From Kofleriaceae bacterium (GTDB taxonomy: Bacteria; Myxococcota_A; Polyangia; Haliangiales; Haliangiaceae): DNA of 33,720 nucleotides. The notes beneath the pieces were generated by a model. That model searched no databases. It was not told where the DNA came from and saw only the letters and a list, made by a program, of their open reading frames with translations. Shown here piece after piece: positions 179 through 28,170 of the stretch (position 1 is the stretch's first letter; each line of letters begins with the position of its first letter). The stretch lies in NCBI GenBank assembly GCA_018058095.1, contig JAGPCO010000083.1, positions 1 to 33,720 on the forward strand. Reading direction: 5' to 3'. The position numbers were made by a program, and so were the translations under genes.

Positions 179-1266
179 CCGCGGCCGTGCTCGACGTCGG
201 CCAGGGTCTGCACCAGCAGCTCGACGCCGGCGCGCGGGAACGCGTTGTAGATGCTGGCGCGCAGGCCGCCGACCGAGCGGTGGCCCTGCAGGCCGACCAG
301 GCCGCGCGCCTCGGCCAGCGCCAGCGCACGCGCCTCGACGGCGGCGTCGCGGCCGCGGAAGGTCACGTTCATGAGCGACCGGCTGCCCGGCCGGGCGTGG
401 GCCGAGAAGGCCTGGCTGTGATCGAGGAAGTCGTACAGCAGCGCGGCCTTGGCCTGGTTGGCCGCGGCCATCGCCGTCAGCCCACCGGCGGCCTCGATCC
501 ACGCCAGCACCTCGGCGATGACGAACACGCCGAAGGTGTTGGGCGTGTTGTACAGCGAGCGCTCGCGCACGTAGGTGCGGTACTGCAGCAGCGGCGCCAG
601 CTCGGCCCGCCCTCGCTCCGCGAAGTCGCGCCGCACGATGACCAGCGTGATGCCGGCCGGGCCCAGGTTCTTCTGCGCGCCGGCGAAGATCAGGTCGTGA
701 GCGGCGACGTCGATCGGCCGGCTGAACAGATCACTCGAGGCGTCACACACCAGCGGCACGCCGGCCGGCGGCACCGGCGGCGCCGCCCACTCGGTGCCGT
801 AGATCGTGTTGTTGCTGGTGTAGTAGGCGTAGGCCGGTGCGGCGGACCACGTCTGCGTGCCGGGGATGGACCGGAACCCGTCGCCGCTGGCGTCACACGC
901 CACGTGCACCGAGCCGACCCGGCGCGCCTCGTCGATGGCCTTGCCGGTCCACACCCCGGTGTGGCAGTAGTCCGCCGTCGCCCCGGCCGGCAGGAACGAC
1001 ATCGGCACCATGTGGAAGTGAGCTGACGCCGTGCCGGTGACGAAACACACCGTGTGGCTGTCGGGGATGGACGCCAGCCGGCGCGCGCTGGCCTCGGCCC
1101 GGGCCAGCACCGCCTCGAACTCGCGGCCGCGGTGGCTGTGCTCGAGGATGCCGATGCCCGAGCCATCGAGATCCCAGATCGCACCCTGGACGCGCCGCAG
1201 CACCTCCTCGGGCAGCATGGCTGGCCCCGAGGACAGGTTGAATCGACGTCCGCTGCTGTGCCCCAT
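175..1266 (-). CDS. serC: Phosphoserine aminotransferase SerC
   Basis: A PLP-dependent class V aminotransferase that converts 3-phosphohydroxypyruvate plus glutamate to phosphoserine in cytoplasmic serine synthesis; in some bacteria it also serves pyridoxal phosphate synthesis. The 363 residues match the usual length of about 360. The N-terminus has the family signature FNLSSGPAMLPEEV, and the PLP lysine is K199 in GAQKNLGPAG. ATG 1266 is chosen because GAGGAG lies 8-9 nt upstream; a start at 1293 would put that Shine-Dalgarno inside the gene. It sits 43 nt after a small conserved gene on the same strand, so the two are probably co-transcribed. The TAG stop is provided by hairpin repeat R1. 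No serA or serB is in view. Identification is secure; only the start is inferred. Confidence 0.95.
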   Translation of the reverse strand: MGHSSGRRFNLSSGPAMLPEEVLRRVQGAIWDLDGSGIGILEHSHRGREFEAVLARAEASARRLASIPDSHTVCFVTGTASAHFHMVPMSFLPAGATADYCHTGVWTGKAIDEARRVGSVHVACDASGDGFRSIPGTQTWSAAPAYAYYTSNNTIYGTEWAAPPVPPAGVPLVCDASSDLFSRPIDVAAHDLIFAGAQKNLGPAGITLVIVRRDFAERGRAELAPLLQYRTYVRERSLYNTPNTFGVFVIAEVLAWIEAAGGLTAMAAANQAKAALLYDFLDHSQAFSAHARPGSRSLMNVTFRGRDAAVEARALALAEARGLVGLQGHRSVGGLRASIYNAFPRAGVELLVQTLADVEHGRG

Positions 1267-1309
1267 CACGTCGCGCTCCTCGTCGCCCCCCACCTCGCGT
1301 CGCGAGGTG

Positions 1310-1552
1310 CTACCGACCTTCCTCGTGGAACCAGACCGTGATGGAGATGCAGTGGAAGGCCTCGTCGCTCGACTGGGTCACGGTGATCTCGGTGACCTTG
1401 TGCTGCGCGTGCGCGCGCATCCAGCCGGTGACCTTCTCGCCGAGGGCGTCGCGCTCGGCGAACATGGTCGCCGAGAAGATCTTGACCCCGTTGGTCTTGA
1501 GGTCCGGACGGAAGATCAACGTGCCGCTCGAGGTGCTGCCTAGCGCTGCCAT
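1310..1552 (-). CDS. Small conserved protein of unknown function, upstream of serC
   Basis: An 80-residue soluble protein without signal peptide or membrane segment. Its centre reads ...VKIFSATMFAERDALGEKVTGWM... and its end has TQSSDEAFHCISITVWF. I recall similar short proteins from other delta-proteobacteria but know no function. Alternating hydrophobic residues at both ends suggest a small alpha/beta fold. ATG 1552 is preceded by a -10-like TAGCGT (1562-1567) only 9 nt upstream and a -35-like TTGTCG (1586-1591) with an 18-nt spacer, so the message would be nearly leaderless. It is probably the first gene of an operon with serC, which follows after 43 nt. Third-position GC agrees with real coding; function is unassigned. 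Confidence 0.8.
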   Translation of the reverse strand: MAALGSTSSGTLIFRPDLKTNGVKIFSATMFAERDALGEKVTGWMRAHAQHKVTEITVTQSSDEAFHCISITVWFHEEGR

Positions 1553-1561
1553 GGGGCGCGG

Positions 1562-1591
1562 ACGCTAGCACGTGGGTCGACGCACCGACAA
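1562..1591 (-). promoter_or_regulatory. Candidate promoter of the small gene-serC operon
   Basis: Minus strand: TTGTCG (1591-1586), 18-nt spacer, TAGCGT (1567-1562), then 9 nt to ATG 1552. The predicted transcript start is within 2-3 nt of the ATG. Read from sequence only. Confidence 0.5.
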
Positions 1592-1646
1592 TTTCCGACT
1601 CGTTCAAACCGGTCGTCCGCGTCAGAACGCGGTTGTTACATCGACA

Positions 1647-2903
<1,257 letters not shown>

Positions 2904-2917
2904 TCAGGTCGGCCCGA

Positions 2918-3856
2918 TCACATGCGGAGGGTGGCGAAGAAGGTCAGGAAGCGATCCTCGTAGAACTGGCGCTCTTCGGTCGGGGGCGTGAGGTCGAGGA
3001 ACTTGAACTCGGCGCCGAGGTCGAGCCGCTGGTTGGGCGAGAAGATGACCTGCGCGGTGGCTGGCACCACGAAGTTCTCGGGCCGGAAGTCGAACTTCGG
3101 CACGATGAGCTGGGCCCGGACGATGACCGACACCGCCTCGATCGGGTTGGTGACGATGCCGATGGCCGGGGCGAAGGTCGGCTTGTCGTTGAACAGCAGC
3201 TGGAAGAAGGTCTCCAGCGCGGTGATGCCGATCTCCGGCCGCGCCGCGTAGCGGAACGGGAAGCCGATGTCGACCGCCGGGGTCATGTCGCCCGCACCCT
3301 GCTCGAGGGTCATCGGGTCGATCACCGCGGCCCGGTTGAGGCTGAAGGCGGCGCGGAAGTCGATGAAGTCGTACGCCAGCGCGGCCTCGATGCCGGCCGC
3401 GAACGACAGCTGCTTGAAGTTGTACGCGCTGCCGAACGTGCCCTGCAGCTCGACGTGGTCCTTGAGGCCGTAGCGGGCCTCGAGCAGCACGCCGACGCTC
3501 TCGAACGCGGTCTCCGAGCTGATGTCGAAGCCGATGCCGGCCTTGAGCTCGGTCACCTTCTCGGTCATCGTCAGCGGGCGGAACAGCTCGCGCCGGGGGT
3601 ACGACTTGAGGGTGAACAGGCCGCCGGCGGTGACCGGCGGCTGATCCTCGTCCTCCTCCTCCTCGTCGCCCTCGTCGTCGCCGCCACCCTCGTCGTCGTC
3701 CTCGTCCTCGTCCTCGTCTTCGTCCTCGTCCTCGTCCTCGTCGTCCGCCCAGGCGACCGAGGCGCACGGCGGCGCCACGAGGGTCGCGCTGGCGGCAGCC
3801 CCGGCCAGCGCCAGGACGAGCAGGCGACGTAGGTCGATCCCCATTGGTTTGGCCAT
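2918..3856 (-). CDS. Predicted outer-membrane beta-barrel protein with acidic N-terminal tract
   Basis: 312 residues. A basic start and hydrophobic stretch form a signal peptide (about 1-37, ending ...SVAWA). It is followed by an almost unbroken Asp/Glu run with a few Gly (38-71), then about 240 residues of alternating strands such as VELQGTFGSAYNF and VSVIVRAQLIVPKFDF, typical of a porin-like barrel. I recognise no named family. The acidic tract would lie in the periplasm or at the barrel mouth and could bind Ca2+ or other cations; this is inference. ATG 3856 is preceded by GAGAGGGG at about 6 nt; an in-frame ATG at 3844 is the alternative. The Ser/Thr kinase gene follows 14 nt after the stop. 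Confidence 0.8.
   Translation of the reverse strand: MAKPMGIDLRRLLVLALAGAAASATLVAPPCASVAWADDEDEDEDEDEDEDEDDDEGGGDDEGDEEEEDEDQPPVTAGGLFTLKSYPRRELFRPLTMTEKVTELKAGIGFDISSETAFESVGVLLEARYGLKDHVELQGTFGSAYNFKQLSFAAGIEAALAYDFIDFRAAFSLNRAAVIDPMTLEQGAGDMTPAVDIGFPFRYAARPEIGITALETFFQLLFNDKPTFAPAIGIVTNPIEAVSVIVRAQLIVPKFDFRPENFVVPATAQVIFSPNQRLDLGAEFKFLDLTPPTEERQFYEDRFLTFFATLRM
3635..3745 (-). repeat. Coding Asp/Glu microsatellite
   Basis: Runs of a GTCCTC-type hexamer (plus strand) encode alternating Asp-Glu residues 38-71 of the outer-membrane protein. A pure hexamer tract like this can change copy number by slippage without shifting the frame, so its length may vary between strains. Confidence 0.7.
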
Positions 3857-3920
3857 GCTAGCCCCTCTCGGCGGCGTGGGGCAAGCGCACGCCAGGGTGA
3901 AGGTGGGGCGCGCCAGAGGA

Positions 3921-4003
3921 CTAGCAGGTTGCTGAGAGACGCCGCGCAGCGGCGTTTCTCGCGCCCTGTTTCCGTGCCCGTGCCCGTGCCCGTGCCCGTG
4001 CCC
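3921..4003 (+). repeat. Intergenic hairpin/hexamer repeat, copy R2
   Basis: In plus orientation: CTAGCAG head, then a hairpin with 3934-3945 pairing to 3949-3960 (one G-U pair) around a GCA loop, then five exact GTGCCC hexamers at 3974-4003. It lies in the 314-bp gap between the H1-like gene and the outer-membrane protein gene, both on the minus strand. Apart from this repeat and the hairpin at 4055-4114, I see nothing else in the gap. Confidence 0.75.
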
Positions 4004-4054
4004 GATCGCGCGGGCGGTGCCGGCCGCGACCGCCAGCCCGGGCACGGCCCGAAA

Positions 4055-4114
4055 CGGAAGAAGCGGCCAGCGCCGGCGTCGGACGAATCCGACGAGGCGT
4101 GGCCGCTTCTTCCG
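4055..4114 (-). terminator. Strong hairpin, possible terminator of the H1-like gene
   Basis: Bases 4055-4069 pair perfectly with 4100-4114 (15 bp), and an inner stem (CGTCGGA with TCCGACG) closes a CGAA loop. It lies 56 nt beyond the stop of the minus-strand H1-like gene. On that strand it is followed only by TTTC, so termination would rest on the stem rather than a long U-tract. It may work in both directions. Confidence 0.55.
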
Positions 4115-4170
4115 GCGAACTCCGACGTCCGACCGCGTGGGTCGGGGACCGCCGGGGATCGCGGCGCGGG

Positions 4171-4512
4171 TTAGCGCTTCTTCTTGGCAGCCTTCTTGGC
4201 CGGCTTCTTGGCCGCCTTCTTCGGGGCGGCCTTCTTCTTGGCAGCCGCCTTCTTCGGGGCCGCCTTCTTGGCCGCCTTCTTCCGCTTCGAGCCGCCGACC
4301 TGGCGCTTGCTGCGCGCGACGTCGCCGTCCTTGTCGAGGAAGTAGATGTACTTGGTGTAGTCCATCTCGACGCCAGCCGCGGCGACCTTGGTCGCCTTGC
4401 CCTTGGCCTGGCCCGGCTTCTTCCGGGGCACGCCCCAGACGTCACCGTTCTTGATGTAGTACATGAGGTCGTTGTCGCGCTTCACACCGGTCTTAGCGAT
4501 CTTCTCAGCCAT
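4171..4512 (-). CDS. Histone-H1-like, Lys/Ala-tailed DNA-binding protein
   Basis: 113 residues. The first 70 form a small compact domain (...NDLMYYIKNGDVWGVPRKK..., ...MDYTKYIYFLDKDGDVARS...) that I cannot assign to a named family. The last 40 are almost only Lys, Ala and Pro in repeats of the AAKKA/PKKAA kind, as in eukaryotic H1 and bacterial H1-like proteins. That tail would be disordered, strongly basic and bind DNA or RNA without sequence preference, so a nucleoid-associated role is likely but inferred. ATG 4512 has GGGAGGG about 8 nt upstream; the open frame reaches further up but without coding character. The upstream 295 bp carries many copies of a CCGACGG-type motif that may be its control region. 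Confidence 0.85.
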   Translation of the reverse strand: MAEKIAKTGVKRDNDLMYYIKNGDVWGVPRKKPGQAKGKATKVAAAGVEMDYTKYIYFLDKDGDVARSKRQVGGSKRKKAAKKAAPKKAAAKKKAAPKKAAKKPAKKAAKKKR

Positions 4513-4575
4513 TTGTCGGACCCTCCCAAAGGGGTAGTGGTTTGCGCGGACCCTATCGAGGGGGTCTGACATTCG

Positions 4576-4820
4576 TTCTCCGACGGGGCGCCGACGGGGT
4601 GCTCCCACCCCCCCGTCGGAGAAAAAAATACGGCCCCGGTTCGAGCGCTTTCTCGACGGGGAAAGGCCTGTGGACAAGTGCCTCTCCGACGGAGCCGGCC
4701 CCGTGTCCAAGTCCTCGTCGAGAAAAGGGAAATCTCCGACGGAGGGAGGGGCGGATCAGCCCGTTTCCCGTCGACGATTTCGGCCCGGCCGGCGGCCCGG
4801 ACCGGGCTCACCGACGGGGC
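4576..4820. repeat. Cluster of CTCCGACGG-type motifs upstream of the H1-like gene
   Basis: Direct and inverted copies of a short motif near TCTCCGACGGRG occur at about 4578, 4590, 4611 (inverted), 4651, 4684, 4712 (inverted), 4733, 4767 (inverted) and 4810. The first pair forms a perfect 13-bp inverted repeat (4576-4588 with 4611-4623). The cluster fills the 295-bp gap and reaches the end of the methyltransferase gene. Spacing is irregular, so it is not a CRISPR. Multiple operator sites are possible; no regulator is identified. Confidence 0.5.
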
Positions 4821-5725
4821 GGACGATTTTTTTTTGCACGGTCGGCGACCGGGCCGCTGGCGGGCCGGCACACGAGCAGCTGGCTCTGCGCCGCCGCGGT
4901 CAGCTCGGCCCCCGCGAAGTCGCCGAATCGCTCCTCGACGCGCAGGCCGGCGTGGGCCACCAGGGCCTCGAGCTCGGCCGGGAAGAACTTCCGCTGTGAC
5001 AGCAGCACACAGCGCTCAGCCCCGGTGACCAGGTCGCGATCGAACAGGCGGATGGTCGCGATCTGGCCGATCGGATCGTACCGGTGGTTGGTCGAGTACT
5101 CGACCCGGTGGCCGGTGCGCGGGTCGGTGAAGCGGGTCCGGGCCCAGCGTCGGGTCGGGTCCCGCAGCAGCCAGGCCAGGTCGGGCACCTGCACGTCGAA
5201 GGCGAAGCGGCCGTCGTCGTCGAGGTGGGCCCCGACCCGGCGCAGGCAGGCGTCGACCTCGACCCGGGTGTAGAGGTGCTCGACGACGTTGAAGGCGGCG
5301 ATGACCAGCGGCGCGCGCACGCCGAGCTCGAAGTCGCGCAGGTCGGCGCTGACGACCTCGACCCGCGCCCGCACCATGCGGCTGGCGCGGTCGAGGCGGG
5401 CCCGCAGCCCGGCCAGCATGGCCGGAGCGCGGTCGACGGCGACGACGCGGAAGCCGGCCCGCGCCAGCGGCAGCGTGACCCGGCCGGTGCCGCAGCCGAG
5501 GTCGATCACCGTCGCGCCCGGCCGGGCCAGCCGGGTCGCCAGGGCCAGGTAGGCCCGCACGTCGTCCCGCCGGCGCCGGTACTCGAGGTCGTAGCGGAAG
5601 GCGTCGGCGTAGTGCTGCCACGATCCGGCGTCGACGGTGTCGTCGCCGTCGTCGCCGTCGTCACGCCCGGCCCGCGCCGTGCCGGCCGCGCCCGCGCCGG
5701 CCCGGCCTGCCGCCCGGCCCGCCAT
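4808..5725 (-). CDS. Class I SAM-dependent methyltransferase
   Basis: A 305-residue predicted cytoplasmic methyltransferase. The SAM-binding motif I is VIDLGCGTGRV at about 73-83, followed by an acidic strand end (VVAVDRAPAML) and the post-motif FNVVEHLYT, all standard for class I enzymes of the UbiE/Methyltransf_25 type. The substrate cannot be told. The first 35 residues are Ala/Gly/Asp-rich and probably disordered. ATG 5725 lies 1 nt after the TGA of pcnB (5729-5727), so translation is likely coupled; a frame open further upstream overlaps pcnB and has no family support. Two short Ala/Asp runs near the start are low-complexity. Identification of the fold is firm, the role is not. Confidence 0.88.
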   Translation of the reverse strand: MAGRAAGRAGAGAAGTARAGRDDGDDGDDTVDAGSWQHYADAFRYDLEYRRRRDDVRAYLALATRLARPGATVIDLGCGTGRVTLPLARAGFRVVAVDRAPAMLAGLRARLDRASRMVRARVEVVSADLRDFELGVRAPLVIAAFNVVEHLYTRVEVDACLRRVGAHLDDDGRFAFDVQVPDLAWLLRDPTRRWARTRFTDPRTGHRVEYSTNHRYDPIGQIATIRLFDRDLVTGAERCVLLSQRKFFPAELEALVAHAGLRVEERFGDFAGAELTAAAQSQLLVCRPASGPVADRAKKNRPPRR

Positions 5726-5726
5726 C

Positions 5727-7292
5727 TCAGGTCGCGGCGCCGTCGACCGCGCCGTCTTCGCGCCGGCGGCGCCGTCCGCCCCGGCGCCGGCGCCGGCGCT
5801 TGCGGCCGTCGCCGTCCTCGCCGTCCTCGCCGTCCGCGTCGTCATCACCGCCGCCGCCTGGGGTCAGGGTCATCGCCACCGGCTGGCCGCTGGTCAGCTC
5901 GGCCAGGAGCAGGGCGTCGGTGAAGAACTCGCGCCCGCCCATGAGCTCCGGCTTCTCACCGCGGGCCAGGGCGGCCTGGATCCGGCGCTGGGCCAGCAGC
6001 AGCTGGCGCAGGCGCTCGCTGTCGCGCCGGGTCACCCGCAGCTGCTCGATCATCGGCAGCGACCACCGGGTCACCACCTGCTGCACCTCGGCCGGCTTGC
6101 AGGTCGCGAGCGGGCCGAGCACGAACGGGCACAGCAGCGCGGCCAGCGCCACCGCGTTGGACGGGTCGGTCCCGGCCGCGACCGAGGCGTCGATGGCGCG
6201 CAGCACCTGCCAGGCCGCGGCCCGCTGCGGCGCCAGCGCCGGATCGCCCGGGTGTGACGGCACGACCGGCGCGGCGGTGGCCGCGCTGGCGCGGTGGGCC
6301 CGGTGCGGGCGGGCCGGCTGGTCGAGCCAGACCCGGCGCCAGGCCAGCTCCTCGGCGTCGAGCTCGCGCACCGGCTCGTCGTCGTCCGTCAACAGGGACG
6401 CGGCCAGCTCGGTGGTGTCGACCGGCGCGTCGTCGTGGGCCGGCAGGTCGTAGTCCTCGTCGTCGCCGGTGCCCTCGTCGTCGACCGGGGCGATGGCGAT
6501 CCGCCGCGCCGGCGGCGCTTCGTCGTCGGCCGGCAGGCGCAGCCGGGGCGAGCCGTCGCCCTGGAACAGCTCGGCCAGCTGGGGTGACAGCAGCGGCAGG
6601 AAGCCGGTCTCGACCAGCAGCTCCATCGACCGGTGGGCCGCGCCGCCGCGGACCAGGCGGTACACCTCCTCGAGCACGCGCGGCGGCGCCGCCTTGTGCA
6701 GCTCGTGCCGCCAGCGGATGAGCGCGCGGTAGGTCTGGGGCTCGATCTCGAGGTCGAGCCGGGCCGCGAACTTGATGGCCCGCAGCATGCGGACCGGGTC
6801 CTCCTGGAACCGCACCTCGGGATCCCCGATGGTCCGGATCTGGCGCCGCTCGAGGTCGCGCAGGCCGTCGACGTGGTCGATGACCCGCTCGGCCTCGACG
6901 TCGTAGAACAGGCCGTTGATGGTGAAGTCGCGCCGGCGCGCGTCGTCGGTCTCGGTCCCGAACACGTTGTCGCGGCGGATCAGCAGCTCGCCCTCGCCGC
7001 CCTCCTCCTCGTCGCGCGGGTTGGCGCGGAAGGTGGCGGTCTCGATGATCTTGTCGCCGAAGAACACCGTGGCCAGCCGGAACCGGCGGCCGATGATCCG
7101 GCAGTTGCGGAACAAGGACTTCACCTCGTTGGGCGTGGCGCTGGTGGCGACGTCGAAGTCCTTCGGCTTCTTCCCGAGCAGGAGATCGCGTACGCAGCCG
7201 CCGACCAGGTAGGCCTTGTGACCGCCCTTGGCCAGCTTGCGGACGACGCGATCGGCATCGGGGTCGATCGAGTCACGGTCCAGTTGTTTCAT
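5727..7292 (-). CDS. pcnB: Poly(A) polymerase / tRNA nucleotidyltransferase family protein, PcnB type
   Basis: 521 residues. The nucleotidyltransferase head has LVGGCVRDLLLGKKPKDFDVAT (G31-G32 and the metal-binding pair D45, D47), the RRDFTINGLFYD motif, and the RNA-binding segment QEDPVRMLRAIKFAARL. The layout is closer to poly(A) polymerase PcnB than to CCA-adding enzyme: the head fits, there is no HD domain, and the end is an Arg-run tail (RKRRRRRRGGRRRRR) as in other PcnB proteins. It would add 3' tails to RNAs and promote decay. A long acidic, low-complexity insert (about 270-360) separates the conserved region from a C-terminal helical part and seems peculiar to this lineage. ATG 7292 is the start nearest the conserved N-terminus; the Shine-Dalgarno is weak. 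The methyltransferase gene follows after 1 nt. Confidence 0.88.
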   Translation of the reverse strand: MKQLDRDSIDPDADRVVRKLAKGGHKAYLVGGCVRDLLLGKKPKDFDVATSATPNEVKSLFRNCRIIGRRFRLATVFFGDKIIETATFRANPRDEEEGGEGELLIRRDNVFGTETDDARRRDFTINGLFYDVEAERVIDHVDGLRDLERRQIRTIGDPEVRFQEDPVRMLRAIKFAARLDLEIEPQTYRALIRWRHELHKAAPPRVLEEVYRLVRGGAAHRSMELLVETGFLPLLSPQLAELFQGDGSPRLRLPADDEAPPARRIAIAPVDDEGTGDDEDYDLPAHDDAPVDTTELAASLLTDDDEPVRELDAEELAWRRVWLDQPARPHRAHRASAATAAPVVPSHPGDPALAPQRAAAWQVLRAIDASVAAGTDPSNAVALAALLCPFVLGPLATCKPAEVQQVVTRWSLPMIEQLRVTRRDSERLRQLLLAQRRIQAALARGEKPELMGGREFFTDALLLAELTSGQPVAMTLTPGGGGDDDADGEDGEDGDGRKRRRRRRGGRRRRREDGAVDGAAT

Positions 7293-7426
7293 AGGGCTAG
7301 GCGACCGGGGTAACACGCGGCGGGAGTGACGGGCAACTGGCGGGATGGCCTCATCGGCCAGCACGCCGGCCCCGGCGCCGGCCCGGCCGCCCCCACCCAT
7401 TGGGCGCAACCCGTTGAAAACCAGGC

Positions 7427-7456
7427 TTGACCTGGTCGCCAGCGGGCTGGGATCCT
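7427..7456 (+). promoter_or_regulatory. Candidate promoter of the kinase-TPR-lipoprotein operon
   Basis: TTGACC (7427-7432), 18-nt spacer, GATCCT (7451-7456), then 6 nt to GTG 7463. The -10 is weak, but its position matches other genes of the window. The TTG at 7427 that would open the longest frame is thus better read as the -35. Confidence 0.4.
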
Positions 7457-7462
7457 GCCGCC

Positions 7463-9601
7463 GTGCCCGGAGAGGAGGGGGTCCTCGGCAACGCGTCGAG
7501 CCGGTACGAGCTGCTGGCTCGTCTGGCGCAAGGCGGCATGGCCGAGATCTTCCTGGCCCGGGCCAACGGCATGGCCGGGTTCGAGCGCTTCGTCGTGCTC
7601 AAGCGCATCCGGCCCGAGCACGGCGAGGACCCGCGCTGGGTCGGCATGTTTCTCGACGAGGCCCGGCTGGCCGCGCAGCTGACCCACCCCAACATCGCCC
7701 AGGTGTTCGACCTCGGCGCCATCGGCGACTCGTACTTCTATACGATGGAGTACGTCCACGGCGTCGACGTGCTCGACCTGCAGCGCCGGTGCGGCGCCCT
7801 CGGCCAGCCGGTCCCGCTGCACATCGTCCTGGCCATCGCCCTCGGCGCGCTGTCGGGGCTGTCGTACGCGCACGACCGCCGCAGCGCCGATGGCCAGGCC
7901 CTCGGCATCGTCCACCGCGACGTGTCGCCGGCCAACCTGATGGTGACCTTCGAGGGCATCGTCAAGCTGCTCGACTTCGGCGTGGCCAAGGCGCGCTCGC
8001 GCACCACCAACACCGAGGTCGGCACCATCGTCGGCAAGGTCGCCTACCTGTCGCCCGAGCAGGTGCTGCGGCCGCAGGTCGACCGCCGCAGCGACCTGTT
8101 CTCGCTCGGCATCGTCCTGTACGAGCTGCTGACCCAGGTCCGGCCGTTCAAGCGGGCCAGCGACTACGAGACGCTGGGCGCCATCGTCAAGTTCGATCCG
8201 CCGTCGCCGCGCACGGTCAACCCGTCGGTGTCGGCCGCGCTCGACCGGGTGGTGATGAAGGCGCTGGCCAAGGACCCGAGCGACCGCTACGGCTCGGCCC
8301 AGGACATGATCGACGCGCTCGAGGCCATCGCCGACGACGAGCGCCTGCAGCTGGCGCCGCGCGAGCTCAAGCGCTTCATGCGCGACCTGTTCGGCACCCC
8401 GCCCGAGCCGTGGCGCGAGCTGCTCGCCGGCGAGGAGTCGATGCGCACCTTCGACGGCGAGATCGAGCTGATCGGGCCGCTCGACGAGTCGTCGCTGGCG
8501 GTGCCGCGCCCGGTCGACATCCGCGGCCTGCCGGCCGACGCCGAGGCCGACGCGGTGCCGCTGCTACCGCTGCCGCGCCTGGCCAACCGCGGCACCCCGG
8601 GCCTGTTCATCGCGCCGGTCGGCGGCGCCGGCGCGACCGGGCGGCCGGCCGACGACCTCGACGAGCAGGCCACGCCGATCGCCGCGTACAAGCCGGTGCC
8701 GCGCACGCCCAGCCCGGGCGAGGCCGCCCTGGTCGCGCCGCCGTCGTGGGCGCCGCCGCCGTCGGCGGTTCCGCCGCCGTCGGCACCGATCGCGGCCGTC
8801 AGCCCATCCGTCGCGGCGCCGTCGGCCGGGGCGCGGCCGCTGCCGCTGCCGGCGCCCGCACCGTCGGCGCCGGTGCCGTCCCCGCTGCCGCCGCCGGCGC
8901 GGTCGGGCCCGATGCCGGCGATGGCCGCCCCGGCGCGGTCGGGGCCGATGCCGGCGATGGCGCCGCCGGGGCGGTCGGGCCCGATGCCGGCGATGGCGCT
9001 GCCTGCGAGCGATCTGTCGGTCACCGACTGGCGACCGGACCAGGCGCTGCCGCCGGCGCCGGCGCCGGCGGTCTCGGCCAGCCCGTCGACGGCGATGCGG
9101 GTCATCGGCCTGCCCGGCCAGGCGACCGGCGGGCGCACCGGCCGGCCCGCGCGCTCGCTCGGCTGGTGGCTGGCGGTGGCGGCCCCGATCATCGCCGGGT
9201 CGATCGCCGCCACCGCCTGGCTGGTGCGCAGCCGGCGCCCGCGTCCGGCGTCGGCGCCGACGGTGAGCGCCCCGGTGGTGACGCCGATCGACGACCCGGC
9301 CGCGCCGCGCCCGCCGCTGACGTCGGCCGCGGTGGCCGTCACGCCGGTCGACGCCGCGGCGGCGCTCGTCGACGCCGCGGCGGCCCCCGTCGACGCCGCG
9401 GCGGCCCCCGTCGACGCCGCGCTCGCCCCGCCGGTCGACGCCGCGGCGGCCCCACCGGTCGGCGCCGCCGGGCCGCCACCCGACGCCGCGGCGGCGGCCA
9501 GCACCAGCCCTCGGCCAGATGCACGTCCGCGCGTCCGCCGGCCCCATCCCGTGGCACCCTCGGACCAGCCATGCGACGACCCGCTCGATTGCCAGCACTG
9601 A
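7463..9601 (+). CDS. Membrane-anchored Ser/Thr protein kinase, myxobacterial type
   Basis: 712 residues from GTG 7463. The kinase domain spans about 15-300: P-loop LAQGGMAEIF with the third Gly replaced (usual in this branch), ATP lysine K47 in VVLKRI, HRDVSPANLM (151-160, Ser in place of the usual Lys), DFG (171-173) and a YLSPEQ APE-type motif. A long Pro/Ala/Ser-rich linker follows, with three copies of an RSGPMPAM-containing 12-residue repeat. One membrane helix lies at about 565-590, then an Ala/Asp/Pro tail rich in VDAAAAP repeats. The kinase would face the cytoplasm and the tail the periplasm, perhaps as a sensor or anchor in peptidoglycan. GTG 7463 is preferred over TTG 7427 because TTGACC at 7427 looks like a -35. 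The gene overlaps the next by 31 nt. Confidence 0.92.
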   Translation: MPGEEGVLGNASSRYELLARLAQGGMAEIFLARANGMAGFERFVVLKRIRPEHGEDPRWVGMFLDEARLAAQLTHPNIAQVFDLGAIGDSYFYTMEYVHGVDVLDLQRRCGALGQPVPLHIVLAIALGALSGLSYAHDRRSADGQALGIVHRDVSPANLMVTFEGIVKLLDFGVAKARSRTTNTEVGTIVGKVAYLSPEQVLRPQVDRRSDLFSLGIVLYELLTQVRPFKRASDYETLGAIVKFDPPSPRTVNPSVSAALDRVVMKALAKDPSDRYGSAQDMIDALEAIADDERLQLAPRELKRFMRDLFGTPPEPWRELLAGEESMRTFDGEIELIGPLDESSLAVPRPVDIRGLPADAEADAVPLLPLPRLANRGTPGLFIAPVGGAGATGRPADDLDEQATPIAAYKPVPRTPSPGEAALVAPPSWAPPPSAVPPPSAPIAAVSPSVAAPSAGARPLPLPAPAPSAPVPSPLPPPARSGPMPAMAAPARSGPMPAMAPPGRSGPMPAMALPASDLSVTDWRPDQALPPAPAPAVSASPSTAMRVIGLPGQATGGRTGRPARSLGWWLAVAAPIIAGSIAATAWLVRSRRPRPASAPTVSAPVVTPIDDPAAPRPPLTSAAVAVTPVDAAAALVDAAAAPVDAAAAPVDAALAPPVDAAAAPPVGAAGPPPDAAAAASTSPRPDARPRVRRPHPVAPSDQPCDDPLDCQH
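8897..9004 (+). repeat. Three tandem 36-bp coding repeats in the kinase linker
   Basis: Units begin at 8897, 8933 and 8969 and encode x-RSGPMPAMA-x-P-type segments. Units 1 and 2 are nearly identical, which suggests recent in-frame duplication. Confidence 0.8.
9347..9457 (+). repeat. Tandem 21-24-bp repeats coding VDAAAAP
   Basis: Units begin at 9347, 9368, 9389, 9410 and 9434 with GTCGACGCCGCG. They code the periplasmic Ala/Asp/Pro tail of the kinase. The last units are 24 bp. In-frame length variation between strains is likely. Confidence 0.75.
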
Positions 9602-22852: not shown

Positions 22853-22888
22853 CAGCCTGGTTGTTCAGCAGCCGGCTACGTGCCGGCT
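22849..22888. repeat. CTAGCAG element with hairpin between convergent genes (weak copy R5)
   Basis: CTAGCAG at 22849 contains the stop of the plus-strand gene. A 7-bp hairpin (22870-22876 with 22882-22888) holds the TAG stop of phoU. It has no GCA loop or hexamers, so kinship with R1-R3 is uncertain. It may act as a shared terminator. Confidence 0.45.
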
Positions 22889-23574
22889 GGTCCGAACCGG
22901 GCCTTGGAGTGCCGCACGTCGCGGCCCTCGACCTGGTAGATGACCATCTCCGCCAGGTTGGTGCCGTGGTCGGCGACGCGCTCGAGGAACTTGGCGCACG
23001 CCTGCAGGTGCACGCCGCGATCGATCGACTGCGGGTCGCGCACCATCTCGCGCTGCAGGTCCATGGTCAGCTCGCGGTACAGGTCGTCGACCTCCTGGTC
23101 GCGCCCGAACACCAGCCGGGCCCGCGCCGCGTCGCCGGCGATGAAGGCGTCGATGGCGTCGCGCACCATGCCCTGGCTGACCTCGCTCATCCGGCGCAGC
23201 CGGGTCGCGATGTGCACCGGCGGCGCCGCCGCCACCGCCAGCACGCGCTCGCCGATGTTGACCGCGAGGTCGCCGATGCGCTCGAGGTCGGTCACCATCT
23301 TCATGGCCAGCGTGATGGTGCGCAGGTCCGACGCCAGCGGCTGGCGCTTGGCCAGGAGGCGCAGGGCCTGCTCGTCGGTCTCGATCTCCAGCGCGTTGAC
23401 GGCGGCGTCGCGGCTGATGGTGGCGCGGGCCAGCTCGAGGTCGCCGTCGACCAGGGCCTGGGTCGCCTCGGCGATCATCTCCTCGACCATCCCGGCCATG
23501 CGCAGGAGCCCGTCCTTGAGCTCGCGCAGCTCGGCCTCGTACGCTCGATCGGTGTGGGCCTTGGCTCCGCTCAC
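22876..23574 (-). CDS. phoU: Phosphate signalling protein PhoU
   Basis: 232 residues, the normal length. Two similar three-helix halves are present, each with the metal-binding pattern: [20 protein letters not shown] in the first and [20 protein letters not shown] in the second (E/D-x3-D style). PhoU links the Pst phosphate transporter with the PhoR sensor and keeps the Pho regulon off when phosphate is plentiful. No pst or phoRB genes are in the window, so phoU stands apart from its usual operon here. GTG 23574 is preferred (just before [18 protein letters not shown]); GTG 23625 is possible. The stop lies inside the shared hairpin at 22870-22888. Confidence 0.94.
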
Positions 23575-23710
23575 TGGCGGATCATACGCAGCCTGAGCGC
23601 GCCGGTCACCCCGGACGTGTGTCACCGCGGCGCTTTTTCGGTGACGGCGCGGTGACGGGCCGGCCCAGGTGGCGGGCCGCGGCCGGCCCGGCCGCCTGGC
23701 GGCTGGTGGC

Positions 23711-26700
23711 CTACTGCACGATCAGCGGGCGGCGGAACACCTCGACCCACTGGTCGTCGCCAGGCTGGTCGATCACCCAGGTCGACACCACCAGGTCGGT
23801 CGCCGTGGTCGACGCGCTGGCGAAGAAGCCGTAGGCGCCGACGAAGGTCGCCTCGGCCCCGGCGATGGGCACCCGGTTCCAGGTGTTGTCGCCGGTCCGC
23901 TGCGCCAGCAGCAGCTCGTGGGTGGTGGCGTCCTGGTACACCACCCACGGCCCGGCCGCGGTGGCGATGAGGGTGGCGTCGTCGCCGACGAAGTGGAACT
24001 CCGGCTTGGGCAGGCCGTCCTCGTTCTGGCCGACGATGCGGTAGCCGTTGTCGATGGTCTCGACCTGGTTGTCGGTGACGTTGCGGTAGATGAGGTCGTC
24101 GCGGGTGGCGCTGACGTAGGCCAGGTGGACCTTGCCGGCGGTGTCGACGCCGACCGTGGGCGACCAGCCGGCGTCGTTGCCATCGCCGCTGCCGTCGATG
24201 ACCGTCGGGGTCGGGAAGGTGCCGGCCACGGTGTCGAACTTGGTCATCTTGAGATCGCCGTTCTGGCGGTCGTAGTAGACCAGGACCGGGACCTCCATCG
24301 CGTCGCGCGCCATGTCGACGAACAGGCCGAGCCCGCGCGGCAGCGGGAAGGCGTCGGGCTCGGGCAGCGCCGGCAGGGCCACGGTGTCGACCACCAGCAC
24401 GGTCCAGTCGGCCGGGCTGGCCGGGGTCGCGCTGGCGGCGAAGGCGTAGCGCACCTCGGCCCGCAGGTTGCCGCCCTGGTTGACGTGGGCCATGTAGCCG
24501 ATGGCCGGGCGGCCGTCGGCGCGCAGGCTGAGCGAGGTGTACATGCCGGTCACGGTGCCGCCGACCTCGACGTCACCGCCGCCGACGTCGACGTCGTGCT
24601 TCTGCCAGGTGCCGTCGGCGGCGCGGGTGGCGAAGCGCAGCGAGGCGTGCTCGCGGTCGAAGTAGCTGACCCGGGGCAGGCCGTCGCTGCCGACGGCGAT
24701 GCTGGTGTACATGCCGACGTCGTCGCCGGCCTGGTCGATGCCGCCGCGGATCATCGCGCCCGGCACCACCGGCGCCACGTCGGGCACGCCGTCGACCCAC
24801 TCCCAGGTGGTGTCGGCGATGCGGCCGTCGGCCAGCACGTGGGCCACCACCAGGTCGCCGTGCGACTGGGCGTAGGCCGAGACCCAGGTGTCGCCGGTGA
24901 GGGGCGAGGCGCCGATGTCGGAGTACGGGCCGATGCGCCCGGCCGGGATGTCGTCGGAGCAGATGCAGGTGTTGTCGATGCAGAAGCCGATGTCGCCGTC
25001 GGAGCAGAAGCCGACGCAGTCCTCGCTGATCTCGCAGGCGCGGGTGCCGGGGTCGTTGCCGCAGTCGCAGCCGGGCGTGAGCGAGGCGGCGACCGACAGG
25101 CCGAACCAGATCGCCAGGGTCGGCGCGACCCGGACCGCGCCGCGGGCGGCCTGACGGGCCAGGCGGGCCAGGGCCGGGCGGCGGCGCCGCACCAGCACCA
25201 GGCCGGCGGTCAGCATGGCCAGCAGCACGCCACCGCTGCTCGGGCTGGTGCCGGCGTCGCAGCTGCAGCCACCCGCGCCGGCCTGGCCGTGGAACGGCGA
25301 GACCCGGGCGATCTGCACGTTGCCGACCTCGTCGCGCACGAACACGGTCAGCTCGCCATCGGCGGCGCCGCCCATGAACGCCAGGGCCTGGGCCCGGGCC
25401 AGGCGACCGCGGCCGGTCTGCCAGGTGGTGGCCGGCTGGTCGGCGTCGGGCCCCGCGAACGCGAACTGCAGGTCCTCGCTGTCGGTCACGATGTCGGCCG
25501 CCGGCACCACCAGGTCGCCATCGACCCACGCGACCTTGGCCTCGTGCACCGCCGGGGCGACCGAGTCGATGATGACCGGGATGGAGATGACGTCGTCGGA
25601 CAGGGTGCGGTCGTCGCCGACGGCGCGCGACACCAGCTCGAGCTCGTACTTACCCTGCCAGGCGAAGGCCCGGTCGGCGATGGCCAGCTGGCCGGTCACC
25701 GAGGTCTGGAACGGGCGCCACAGGCCCTGGCCGAGCCGGTAGCTCCACTCCAGGGTCCGGCCGCCGGCGTCGTGGCTGTCGACGTCGATCAGCACGGTCG
25801 GCATCGCGCCGCCCTTGCCGAGCAGCGCGGCGCGGACGTCGGCCGGGGCCGGGGTGCGGATCTCGCGCAGGCTGGCCTGGCCGCGAGCACGACCGGGCGC
25901 CGGGCCGGCCCGGCGGTCGAGGCCGGTGATCATCTCGGCCAGCGCCGGGCGGGTCGGGTCGGACGCCAGGGTCCGCATCATCGCGCCCGGGGTCAGGCCG
26001 GCGAAGATGCCGAGGAAGTCGTCCTGGGCGGTGGTGACCTTGCCGATGCGCAGGTTGGTCAGGTCGAAGCCGGCGAAGGCCGGGACCTCGATCGGGTCGA
26101 GGCCGTTGGCCAGCAGCGGCAGCGCCAGGTCGAACACCGTCGGCAGGATGGCCTCGAGGTCGGCCGGGGTCTCGCGCACGAACTCGCTGTTGGACACCCG
26201 CAGCTGGATCTGGTCGGACGACAGGCCCATCAGCATCGGCGTCAGGGTCGGCGGCGACGCCGCGTTGTCGACCATCAGGTTGATGCCGACGTTGAGGGTG
26301 AGCGACAGCGTGAACAGGCGGGTGTAGCGCTCGTACAGGAACGCGTAGAAGTCGACCTCGAGGTTGCTGATGCCGAGGGTCAGGTTGGGCGCGGCGGCGG
26401 TGCCGTCACCGACGGTGAAGTCGACCGCGCGCTGGGGCCGCAGCACCAGCAGCAGCGGGTCGCGCCCGCCGTCGGAGCCGAGCTCGGCCGCCGACGGCAC
26501 CAGGATGCCGATGGTGCCGAGGTTGAGCTGATCGATCGTCGTGGTGCCGACGCCCATACACATGGCGCCGGAGGTCACCAGGTGGTGGCCGGCCAGGTCG
26601 AGCGTGGTCTCCGACATGCCGAAGGCCAGGTCGGTCGCCGCCGGGTCGGGCGCGCCGGAGAAGGCCCCGGCCGCGGCCAGGGTGAAGGTCGAGCGCGACG

Positions 26701-27703
26701 TGATGGGCAGGCTGGCCGGCGGCGCCGCGAAGTTGGGCGCCGGGATGGGCGGCACACACAGGCTGGGCTCGCTGTCGAGGTCGGTGGTGCGGGTGGCGAT
26801 GTCCTCGTCGGCGTTGAAGCCGGTGATGACACCCAGGGTCATGCCGCCGCCGCCGAGGTTGACGTAGCCGCCGGGCACCAGGCGGCCCTCCATCAGCGCC
26901 TCGGTGCCGGGCGATACGCCCTCGAGCATGGCGCCGACGTCGATCAGGCCCTCGATGCCGAGCGGGTCGGGCAGGAAGCCCTGGACCAGGTCGTTGAGGG
27001 TCGGGGTGAACAGGTCGATGATGAACTCACCGATGAAGCTGTCGAGCATGTCGATCACCAGATCGAGGATGTCGGACAGCACGCTGCAGCCGGAGAAGCT
27101 GGTGCCGGAGAAGTCGGTGTTGTTGATCTGCGCCAGCGTGATGGTCAGCTCGCCGTCGCTGCCGCGGATGCCGAGGTCGAGGTTGGCGTCGACGATGAGG
27201 TCGTTGGCGTTGATGCCGAGCGTGCACGAGAACGGGATGAACGCGATGTCACCGTTGAGGCGCGCCGCCGCGTTGATGTCGATCTGGACCCGGACGTTGA
27301 GCGTGTTGCTGTCGACCGGGGTGATCGCGAAGGTGTTGATGGCCGGCACCACGTTGCAGCCCGGGCTGGCGCCACACGAGCCGCCGCCGCCCTGGGCCGG
27401 GTTGGTCGAGGTGCAGTAGTCGAAGCCGAGGGCCGAGCCGCCGACGCCACCCTGGTTGACGCAGAAGCCGCCGCCGATGGCGTCGCGCAGCGTCGCCTCG
27501 ATGAGCTGGTTGACCCGGGTCATGCCGCTCGGGGTGACCCGGACCTGGGCGCCACCTTCGACCGTCTGGTCGGCTGGCAGCGCGCCTCCGGGCAAGGGCT
27601 GGCTGGCGCAACCGCAGCCGAGGCCGCCGTTGCCGCACGATCCCATGATGAAGACGAACAGCAGCGACAGCGCGAGATTCAAGCGACGCGAATTGGTGAA
27701 CAC
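23711..27703 (-). CDS. Giant two-part surface protein with internal MYXO-CTERM-like signal
   Basis: 1330 residues from GTG 27703, which has GGGGGAGG about 5 nt upstream. Part 1 (1-840) begins with a lipoprotein signal (lipobox IMGSC, Cys 23) and consists of long amphipathic strands and a helix pair, reminiscent of lipid-binding proteins but unassigned. It closes at about 808-840 with a MYXO-CTERM-like tripartite signal: CSC, a hydrophobic helix ([15 protein letters not shown]) and an RRRR cluster. Part 2 begins at once with a basic stretch and a second hydrophobic segment ([15 protein letters not shown]) ending in lipobox-like LTPGC (about 877), then a Cys-rich piece and a beta-propeller-like domain with recurring [19 protein letters not shown] units. 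It looks like two lipoproteins in one frame. The frame is open and GC-rich throughout. Confidence 0.88.
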
Positions 27704-27905
27704 GTGTCCTCCCCCGAGGCACCGCGGTGCGGCGACGGCTCGTCGACGCATAGTAGATGAAGGGCCCGCGGAAAGCCGAGCGCTTTTTAGTCGGCAGGCC
27801 CGCGAACACGCAAGGCTTTTCACGCGCTGCGTCGGAAAGTGTGGCGAATTCACGGCGGCCCACACGGCGGGGCCGGCGGCTCGCGGTGGAACTCGCGAGA
27901 TCCAC

Positions 27906-27950: not shown

Positions 27951-28024
27951 GGGTCCGTAGCTCAGTTGGATAGAGCGCCGGGCTTCGAACCCGTAGGTCG
28001 GGCGTTCGAGTCGCCCCGGACCCA
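27951..28024 (+). tRNA. tRNA-Arg (anticodon TCG)
   Basis: Full cloverleaf of 74 nt: acceptor GGGTCCG/CGGACCC, D-arm GCTC...GAGC, anticodon loop CTTCGAA with anticodon TCG (reads CGA), T-arm GGGCG-TTCGAGT-CGCCC, discriminator A. The outermost anticodon-stem pair is C-T, a mismatch. CCA is not encoded; it must be added after transcription. Probably transcribed with tRNA-Lys, 67 nt downstream. Confidence 0.95.
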
Positions 28025-28091
28025 CCCAGCGAACCCAGCACCCAGCACCCGCACCGAAGGCACTCAGCAGCGAATCACGCAGACAAATTTC

Positions 28092-28163
<72 letters not shown>

Positions 28164-28170
28164 CGACGAT

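Follow-up and report, generated by a model that had tools for sequence, protein, structure and literature searches.

One reading frame, two lipoprotein signals and an internal MYXO-CTERM-like signal: a candidate membrane polyprotein of Myxococcota

A 1330-residue protein of an uncultured Kofleriaceae bacterium joins two lipoprotein parts in what is very likely one conserved frame. An internal MYXO-CTERM-like signal and a second lipoprotein signal stand back to back at the junction. On the evidence of the sequence, we consider it probable that the product is a polyprotein that forms a membrane hairpin and gives rise to two lipid-anchored proteins through cuts by LspA and, probably, a myxosortase. 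This two-lipoprotein layout had been put forward in the preliminary description and was confirmed, with an N-terminal lipobox at Cys23, the internal signal at residues 811-842 and an LTPGC lipobox at Cys879; the same arrangement was recovered in 80 loci. The features are listed in coordinates of the window, by which we mean the whole stretch of DNA analysed (33,720 nucleotides).

27703 to 23711, minus strand: whole gene, 1330 aa, with a GTG start at 27703 and the stop included (open frame and translation).
27635 to 27703, minus strand: N-terminal lipoprotein signal peptide and lipobox LFVFIMGSC, residues 1-23, with Cys23 at 27635-27637 (sequence).
25985 to 27562, minus strand: predicted BPI/LBP/CETP-like double TULIP part, approximately residues 48-573 (AF2 model mac4475eb062b, mean pLDDT 58.4; Foldseek; VIA; family profile).
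25292 to 25897, minus strand: two probable Fn3-like domains, approximately residues 603-804 (VIA, model residues 582-783 against Fn3 tandems, Z about 7-8).
25178 to 25273, minus strand: internal MYXO-CTERM-like signal, residues 811-842, with G812-C813, helix 826-838 and R839-842 (TIGR03901 match).
25121 to 25189, minus strand: Arg cluster and basic linker, residues 839-861, n-region of the second signal peptide, predicted cytoplasmic (sequence; linker charge of homologues).
25067 to 25120, minus strand: second hydrophobic segment and lipobox LTPGC, residues 862-879, with Cys879 at 25067-25069 (pattern in homologues and chance control).
24929 to 25069, minus strand: Cys-rich segment following Cys879, residues 879-925 (sequence; several Cys invariant in A4).
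23714 to 24928, minus strand: predicted beta-propeller part, residues 926-1330 (AF2 model m800d4cd8e1e7, mean pLDDT 65).

The GTG start is preceded by an SD-like GGGGGAGG (27708-27715, spacing of approximately 5 nt), and a genome search of relatives returned full-length homologues without internal stops. An open frame of 1363 aa lies antisense to the gene on the plus strand (window 23669-27760); we regard it as an artefact of GC-rich DNA, its translation having none of the lipobox and MYXO-CTERM features of the minus-strand frame. A PhoU-like gene follows directly downstream on the same strand as the 1330-aa gene (window 22876-23625), and a PhoU-like homologue is also found downstream of four other family loci (L005, L011, L013, and L016). 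Just upstream, on the opposite strand, are genes for tRNA-Arg (tcg) and tRNA-Lys (ctt) (window 27951-28164). Searches of Pfam and PHROGs with the 1330-aa protein itself gave no match.

The internal signal was recognized with the NCBIfam model for MYXO-CTERM (TIGR03901, cut-off 20), which scores residues 811-842 at 16.8 bits in a scan of the whole protein and the same junction signal at 24.0 bits, above the cut-off, in a scan of genome frames; at E<=1 the model finds only 10 of 26 diverse family members. Because 488 residues follow R842, so that the signal is not at the extreme C-terminus, we class the protein as internal MYXO-CTERM-like and not as a canonical MYXO-CTERM protein. The elements of a second lipoprotein signal are all present beyond the Arg cluster: a basic n-region, a hydrophobic core (residues 862-878) and the lipobox Cys879. 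This signal sits inside the chain, and only in two split homologues (L046 and L122) is its counterpart at a translated N-terminus. Matches of NF058595 ('invert_tail') at the junction were discarded; they fall below the cut-off, and the model also matches in all 14 control genomes.

The search of relatives for the same junction that the preliminary description had called for was productive. A paralogue with the same layout is encoded at C64 of the same genome, and 48 of 56 genomes of relatives have a family match, many of them full length and free of internal stops. With a profile built from 26 diverse members the family was found in 175 of 377 genomes of the phylum; single-contig genomes are among these matches, with open frames of approximately 1300-1440 aa. 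Among the loci that we read, 80 from across Myxococcota have the fused in-frame junction, at identities down to about 26-30%, and the single-contig genomes with a fused junction include G224, G061, G136, and G198. All 80 fused loci have the Cys-helix-Arg signal, with a distance from Cys to Arg of 20-36 aa in 79 of them; the lipobox Cys lies 13-58 aa beyond the Arg cluster, and the lipobox itself was found by pattern in 78, the remaining two reading GAC and QAC. In the alignment of 26 diverse members (A1), G812 and C813 are invariant and the N-terminal Cys23 is nearly so.

As a control for chance we used a single strict SPII-like pattern, composed of basic residues, an uncharged hydrophobic core and a Cys. 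Sites of this kind occur at the junction in 74 of 79 proteins, compared with 11 elsewhere in 90,494 residues, and the same pattern finds a site near the N-terminus in 64 of the 79 homologues; by this measure of sequence, the second signal at the junction is more than a product of chance. The linker has a median net charge of +6 in 77 homologues, with acidic residues in seven of the 77, as the positive-inside rule would predict for a loop held in the cytoplasm, with a stop-transfer helix before it and a signal peptide after it. In codon-position differences across the junction in close pairs, the excess at third positions is weak, and for this reason we do not use the comparison as proof of translation. 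Two members deserve separate mention: one locus (L116, G081:C220:14500-25000) contains two fused family paralogues in tandem, and the fused member of another (L056, G038:C398, ORF 1177-7827) has approximately 880 extra residues ahead of its BPI-like part in a frame of 2217 aa from stop to stop, its host genome being without a strong myxosortase match.

Seven loci have a real stop codon just past the Arg cluster (L044, L045, L046, L108, L109, L122, and L124). In two of these, L046 and L122, the adjacent gene encodes the second half with its own lipoprotein signal peptide, starting MNARTCLVGALALTLAGVANPGC or MSKTRLALLAALAALAFGC: in L046 the first gene overlaps the second as TGATG and the second begins MNARTCLVGALALTLAGVANPGCSC, and in L122 a gap of a few tens of bases precedes the second gene, which begins MSKTRLALLAALAALAFGCDD. 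The second half was not seen just downstream in the other five, in the stretch read directly 3' of the first half, and two further loci that seemed to be split (L123 and L125) were left out, as they run into contig ends. The junction's two signals are, judging from their sequences, homologous to the real gene end and gene start of L046 and L122. On a quick tree of the first half, with a midpoint root that is not inferred, fused forms occur on either side of the root and the forms with a stop codon branch off at separate inner positions, with six changes of state including the two contig-end cases and about five without them. The pattern indicates that fused and split states interconvert, the gene having split or fused more than once in a tree where intact fusions prevail. 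Separate genes for the two halves, which the preliminary description had named as grounds for suspecting a sequencing or assembly error, thus do exist in a few genomes, and they reflect this repeated fission or fusion and not a sequencing error in the present gene.

The genome has the genes that processing would call for. It encodes one myxosortase-family protein, at C142, which scores 111.9 bits with the Mrt_core model (cut-off 100) but does not reach the cut-offs set for the MrtX, MrtP, and MrtC models, as well as LspA (PF01252, 126.2 bits) and Lgt (PF01790, 125.2 bits). Across 235 genomes, the family is present in 109 of the 175 that have a myxosortase core over the cut-off and in 4 of the 60 that do not (G038, G062, G124, and G199, in which no strong myxosortase match was found); the associated p of 3e-15 ignores shared ancestry, the genomes not being phylogenetically independent.

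We propose that a single translation product would enter the Sec pathway with its N-terminal lipoprotein signal peptide leading. Transfer would then halt at the internal MYXO-CTERM helix, the Arg-rich linker would stay in the cytoplasm, and the second hydrophobic segment would restart transfer as an internal type II signal peptide, which would make the junction a hairpin in the inner membrane; we consider this topology likely. Lipidation and a cut before Cys879, the work of Lgt and LspA, would release the C-terminal Cys-rich and beta-propeller part as an ordinary lipoprotein; with a further cut, by a myxosortase-family protease behind the MYXO-CTERM Cys813, the BPI-like/Fn3-like part would keep a lipid anchor. 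The outcome would be two lipoproteins in a fixed 1:1 ratio, most likely cooperating at the cell surface. The preliminary description had left the choice between a polyprotein and a fusion of neighboring genes. The polyprotein is the better supported reading because the junction is in frame phylum-wide, its signals match the ends and starts of the split relatives, and genes for a myxosortase-family protein, Lgt, and LspA are present; fusion is true as evolutionary history and does not compete with it, and the cuts themselves stay predictions. Documentation of LspA acting on an internal signal was not found in the searchable literature.

The most serious alternative, to which we give a modest share of the probability, is that no cut takes place and the two hydrophobic segments form a stable transmembrane hairpin; the product would then remain one protein of the inner membrane, with two parts in the periplasm. 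Both segments come out as helices in the AF2 models, with low pLDDT, and a hairpin is also the topology expected prior to cutting. However, a plain hairpin needs neither a conserved lipobox Cys nor an invariant G812-C813, and the split relatives have, at these ends, an ordinary sorting tag and an ordinary lipoprotein signal peptide. Slightly less probable again is a single cut, by LspA at the second signal, with the MYXO-CTERM part left uncut and the first half keeping its helix, or the reverse. The marginal TIGR03901 scores of many members would fit this, as would the very regular second lipobox and the proposal of Guo et al. that some uncleaved MYXO-CTERM protein surfaces without MrtX (PMC11980579); set against it are the invariance of G812-C813 in divergent members and the co-occurrence of the family with the myxosortase core.

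That the second half is translated from a GTG or ATG of its own within the linker, with the shared frame being incidental, we regard as most improbable. The GTG near the RRRR cluster to which the preliminary description had drawn attention is present, and some in-frame start codon occurs in 58 loci, as expected in GC-rich DNA rich in Val and Leu codons; however, an SD-like 4-mer was found in only six scored fused loci, at differing positions, so that no conserved SD-supported start emerges and the suggestion of a separate start did not hold up, and strict conservation of frame across 80 loci would be needless. Loss of a stop between two genes through an assembly or sequencing error, a notion that the existence of split homologues might encourage, is refuted as the source of the fused frame by the same in-frame junction in dozens of independent genomes and in the C64 paralogue, and we give it practically no weight.

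Folds were predicted for both parts of the putative polyprotein. For the first half, the four best Foldseek matches are BPI and LBP (E 6.2e-16 to 1.2e-13, including 1ewf at 6.2e-16 and 4m4d at 1.0e-13), and VIA yields Z 14.2 to BPI 1bp1 (rmsd 6.0, 419 aligned), 12.8 to CETP, and 11.9 to LBP, all with a model of low confidence (mean pLDDT 58.4). The sequence profile A1 on its own picks the BPI chain 1bp1 at E 0.0013; profile A3, of the nine closest sequences, matched no PDB chain, BPI being reached only with the wider A1. None of the Pfam TULIP families matched the 1330-aa protein, PF01273 included, for which one of the 26 members gave E 0.095. We accordingly speak of a BPI-like fold, predicted to consist of two tandem TULIP barrels, and, given that this protein has no PF01273 match, do not file it in the BPI/LBP/CETP family, with whose double TULIP proteins residues 48-573 share the predicted two-barrel fold. 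The known bacterial TULIPs are P47, OrfX2, YceB, DUF4403, DUF2140, and DUF2993 (PMC6791001), and all six were absent from the Pfam matches of the 26 members. Unlike these, the 1330-aa protein is predicted to be lipid-anchored, with Fn3-like domains and a sorting tag following the TULIP part, and has no Pfam TULIP match. The structural models point to a double TULIP surface lipoprotein family across much of the phylum, possibly an undescribed bacterial TULIP family. The domains following the TULIP part are probably two Fn3-like domains, a weak match of the model to a common arrangement.

The second half was anticipated in the preliminary description as a Cys-rich and beta-propeller-like part beyond the LTPGC, which agrees with the Cys-rich residues 879-925 and the predicted propeller fold of residues 926-1330. 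Its model is a beta-propeller, with VIA Z of 25-29.6 to PLL lectin and CylK propellers (about 26-27.5 for the PLL type); many propellers match, and therefore no function follows from the PLL and CylK matches. Binding of lipids or glycans at the surface would be a guess from the folds.

In this genome, nearly all of the 40 other MYXO-CTERM matches that we read end within about 20 aa of the stop (mostly 0-21 aa), and internal tags with a proper Cys are found among them at C105 and C199; a weak match at C116 (L102) has no Cys and was taken as chance. The C105 protein (L104, G000:C105:24626-27196) combines in one frame a phosphodiester glycosidase (NAGPA) part, MYXO-CTERM, a lipobox, SH3, and peptidase M23, and because the relatives found carry its halves as separate genes, it looks from sequence like a recent fusion. 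The C199 protein (L105, G000:C199:51290-53503) is composed of choice-of-anchor D repeats, MYXO-CTERM, a type I-like signal peptide, and a TraB-like/OmpA part, a layout resembling that of MXAN_5598 of Myxococcus xanthus, and its second signal peptide is kept in five further fused relatives of this type across the phylum (L153, L154, L158, L159, and L160). Every internal tag with a proper Cys seen in this genome is directly followed by a second signal peptide.

Guo, Haft and Wall (2025) demonstrated cleavage of MYXO-CTERM by MrtX, described internal MYXO-CTERM motifs as rare cases, named MXAN_5598 as a possible fusion with proposed processing of its first part, and cited internal tags of other sorting systems as functional; a second signal peptide is not mentioned for MXAN_5598 (PMC11980579). 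Like the protein described here, MXAN_5598 is encoded in a single frame in which an internal MYXO-CTERM stands between an N-terminal surface part and a second exported part, its processing being only proposed; it differs in that its second part is an outer membrane beta-barrel with OmpA, and the layout in its relatives has a type I-like signal, whereas in the present family the second signal is a type II lipobox and both parts are predicted lipoproteins. Canonical MYXO-CTERM proteins such as TraA, which is cut by MrtX, have in common with it the invariant Cys, the transmembrane helix, the Arg cluster, and a myxosortase-family gene; there, however, the tag ends the protein, unlike the signal discussed here with its long continuation beyond R842. 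An ArtA substrate of Haloferax volcanii reportedly has an internal tripartite tag (Abdul Halim and colleagues, 2017, cited by Guo et al.); it is similar in that a sorting tag works away from the C-terminus and different in being an unrelated protein handled by an archaeal enzyme, and we know of no report of a signal peptide following that tag. In viral envelope polyproteins, such as bunyavirus Gn/Gc, an anchor helix is followed by an internal signal peptide that is cut by signal peptidase; this is an analogy of mechanism only, the proteins being unrelated, the signal peptidase eukaryotic, and lipidation absent. Our literature search turned up no paper that describes an internal lipobox or a bacterial polyprotein made up of lipoproteins. 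MYXO-CTERM, the lipobox, and the internal tag, the last with one published precedent in MXAN_5598, are known; what appears to be new, as far as we have searched, is a tag and a second signal peptide placed back to back and conserved phylum-wide.

Sorting tags are taken to mark the end of a protein and signal peptides its beginning; a family that joins the two back to back throughout a phylum would constitute a clear bacterial membrane polyprotein. The family would also serve as a natural test of myxosortase and LspA on internal signals, with one chain, two cuts, and split relatives as controls. More tentatively, and at somewhat short of even odds, Myxococcota may employ a general polyprotein strategy in which an internal sorting tag and a second signal, of type II or type I, give two separately anchored surface proteins; here these would be a BPI/LBP-like lipid-binding protein and a propeller made in fixed proportion, in a family present in nearly half of the sampled phylum. 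The predicted folds point, in a phylum known for predation and outer membrane exchange, to an undescribed bacterial surface lipoprotein of the BPI/LBP-like kind.
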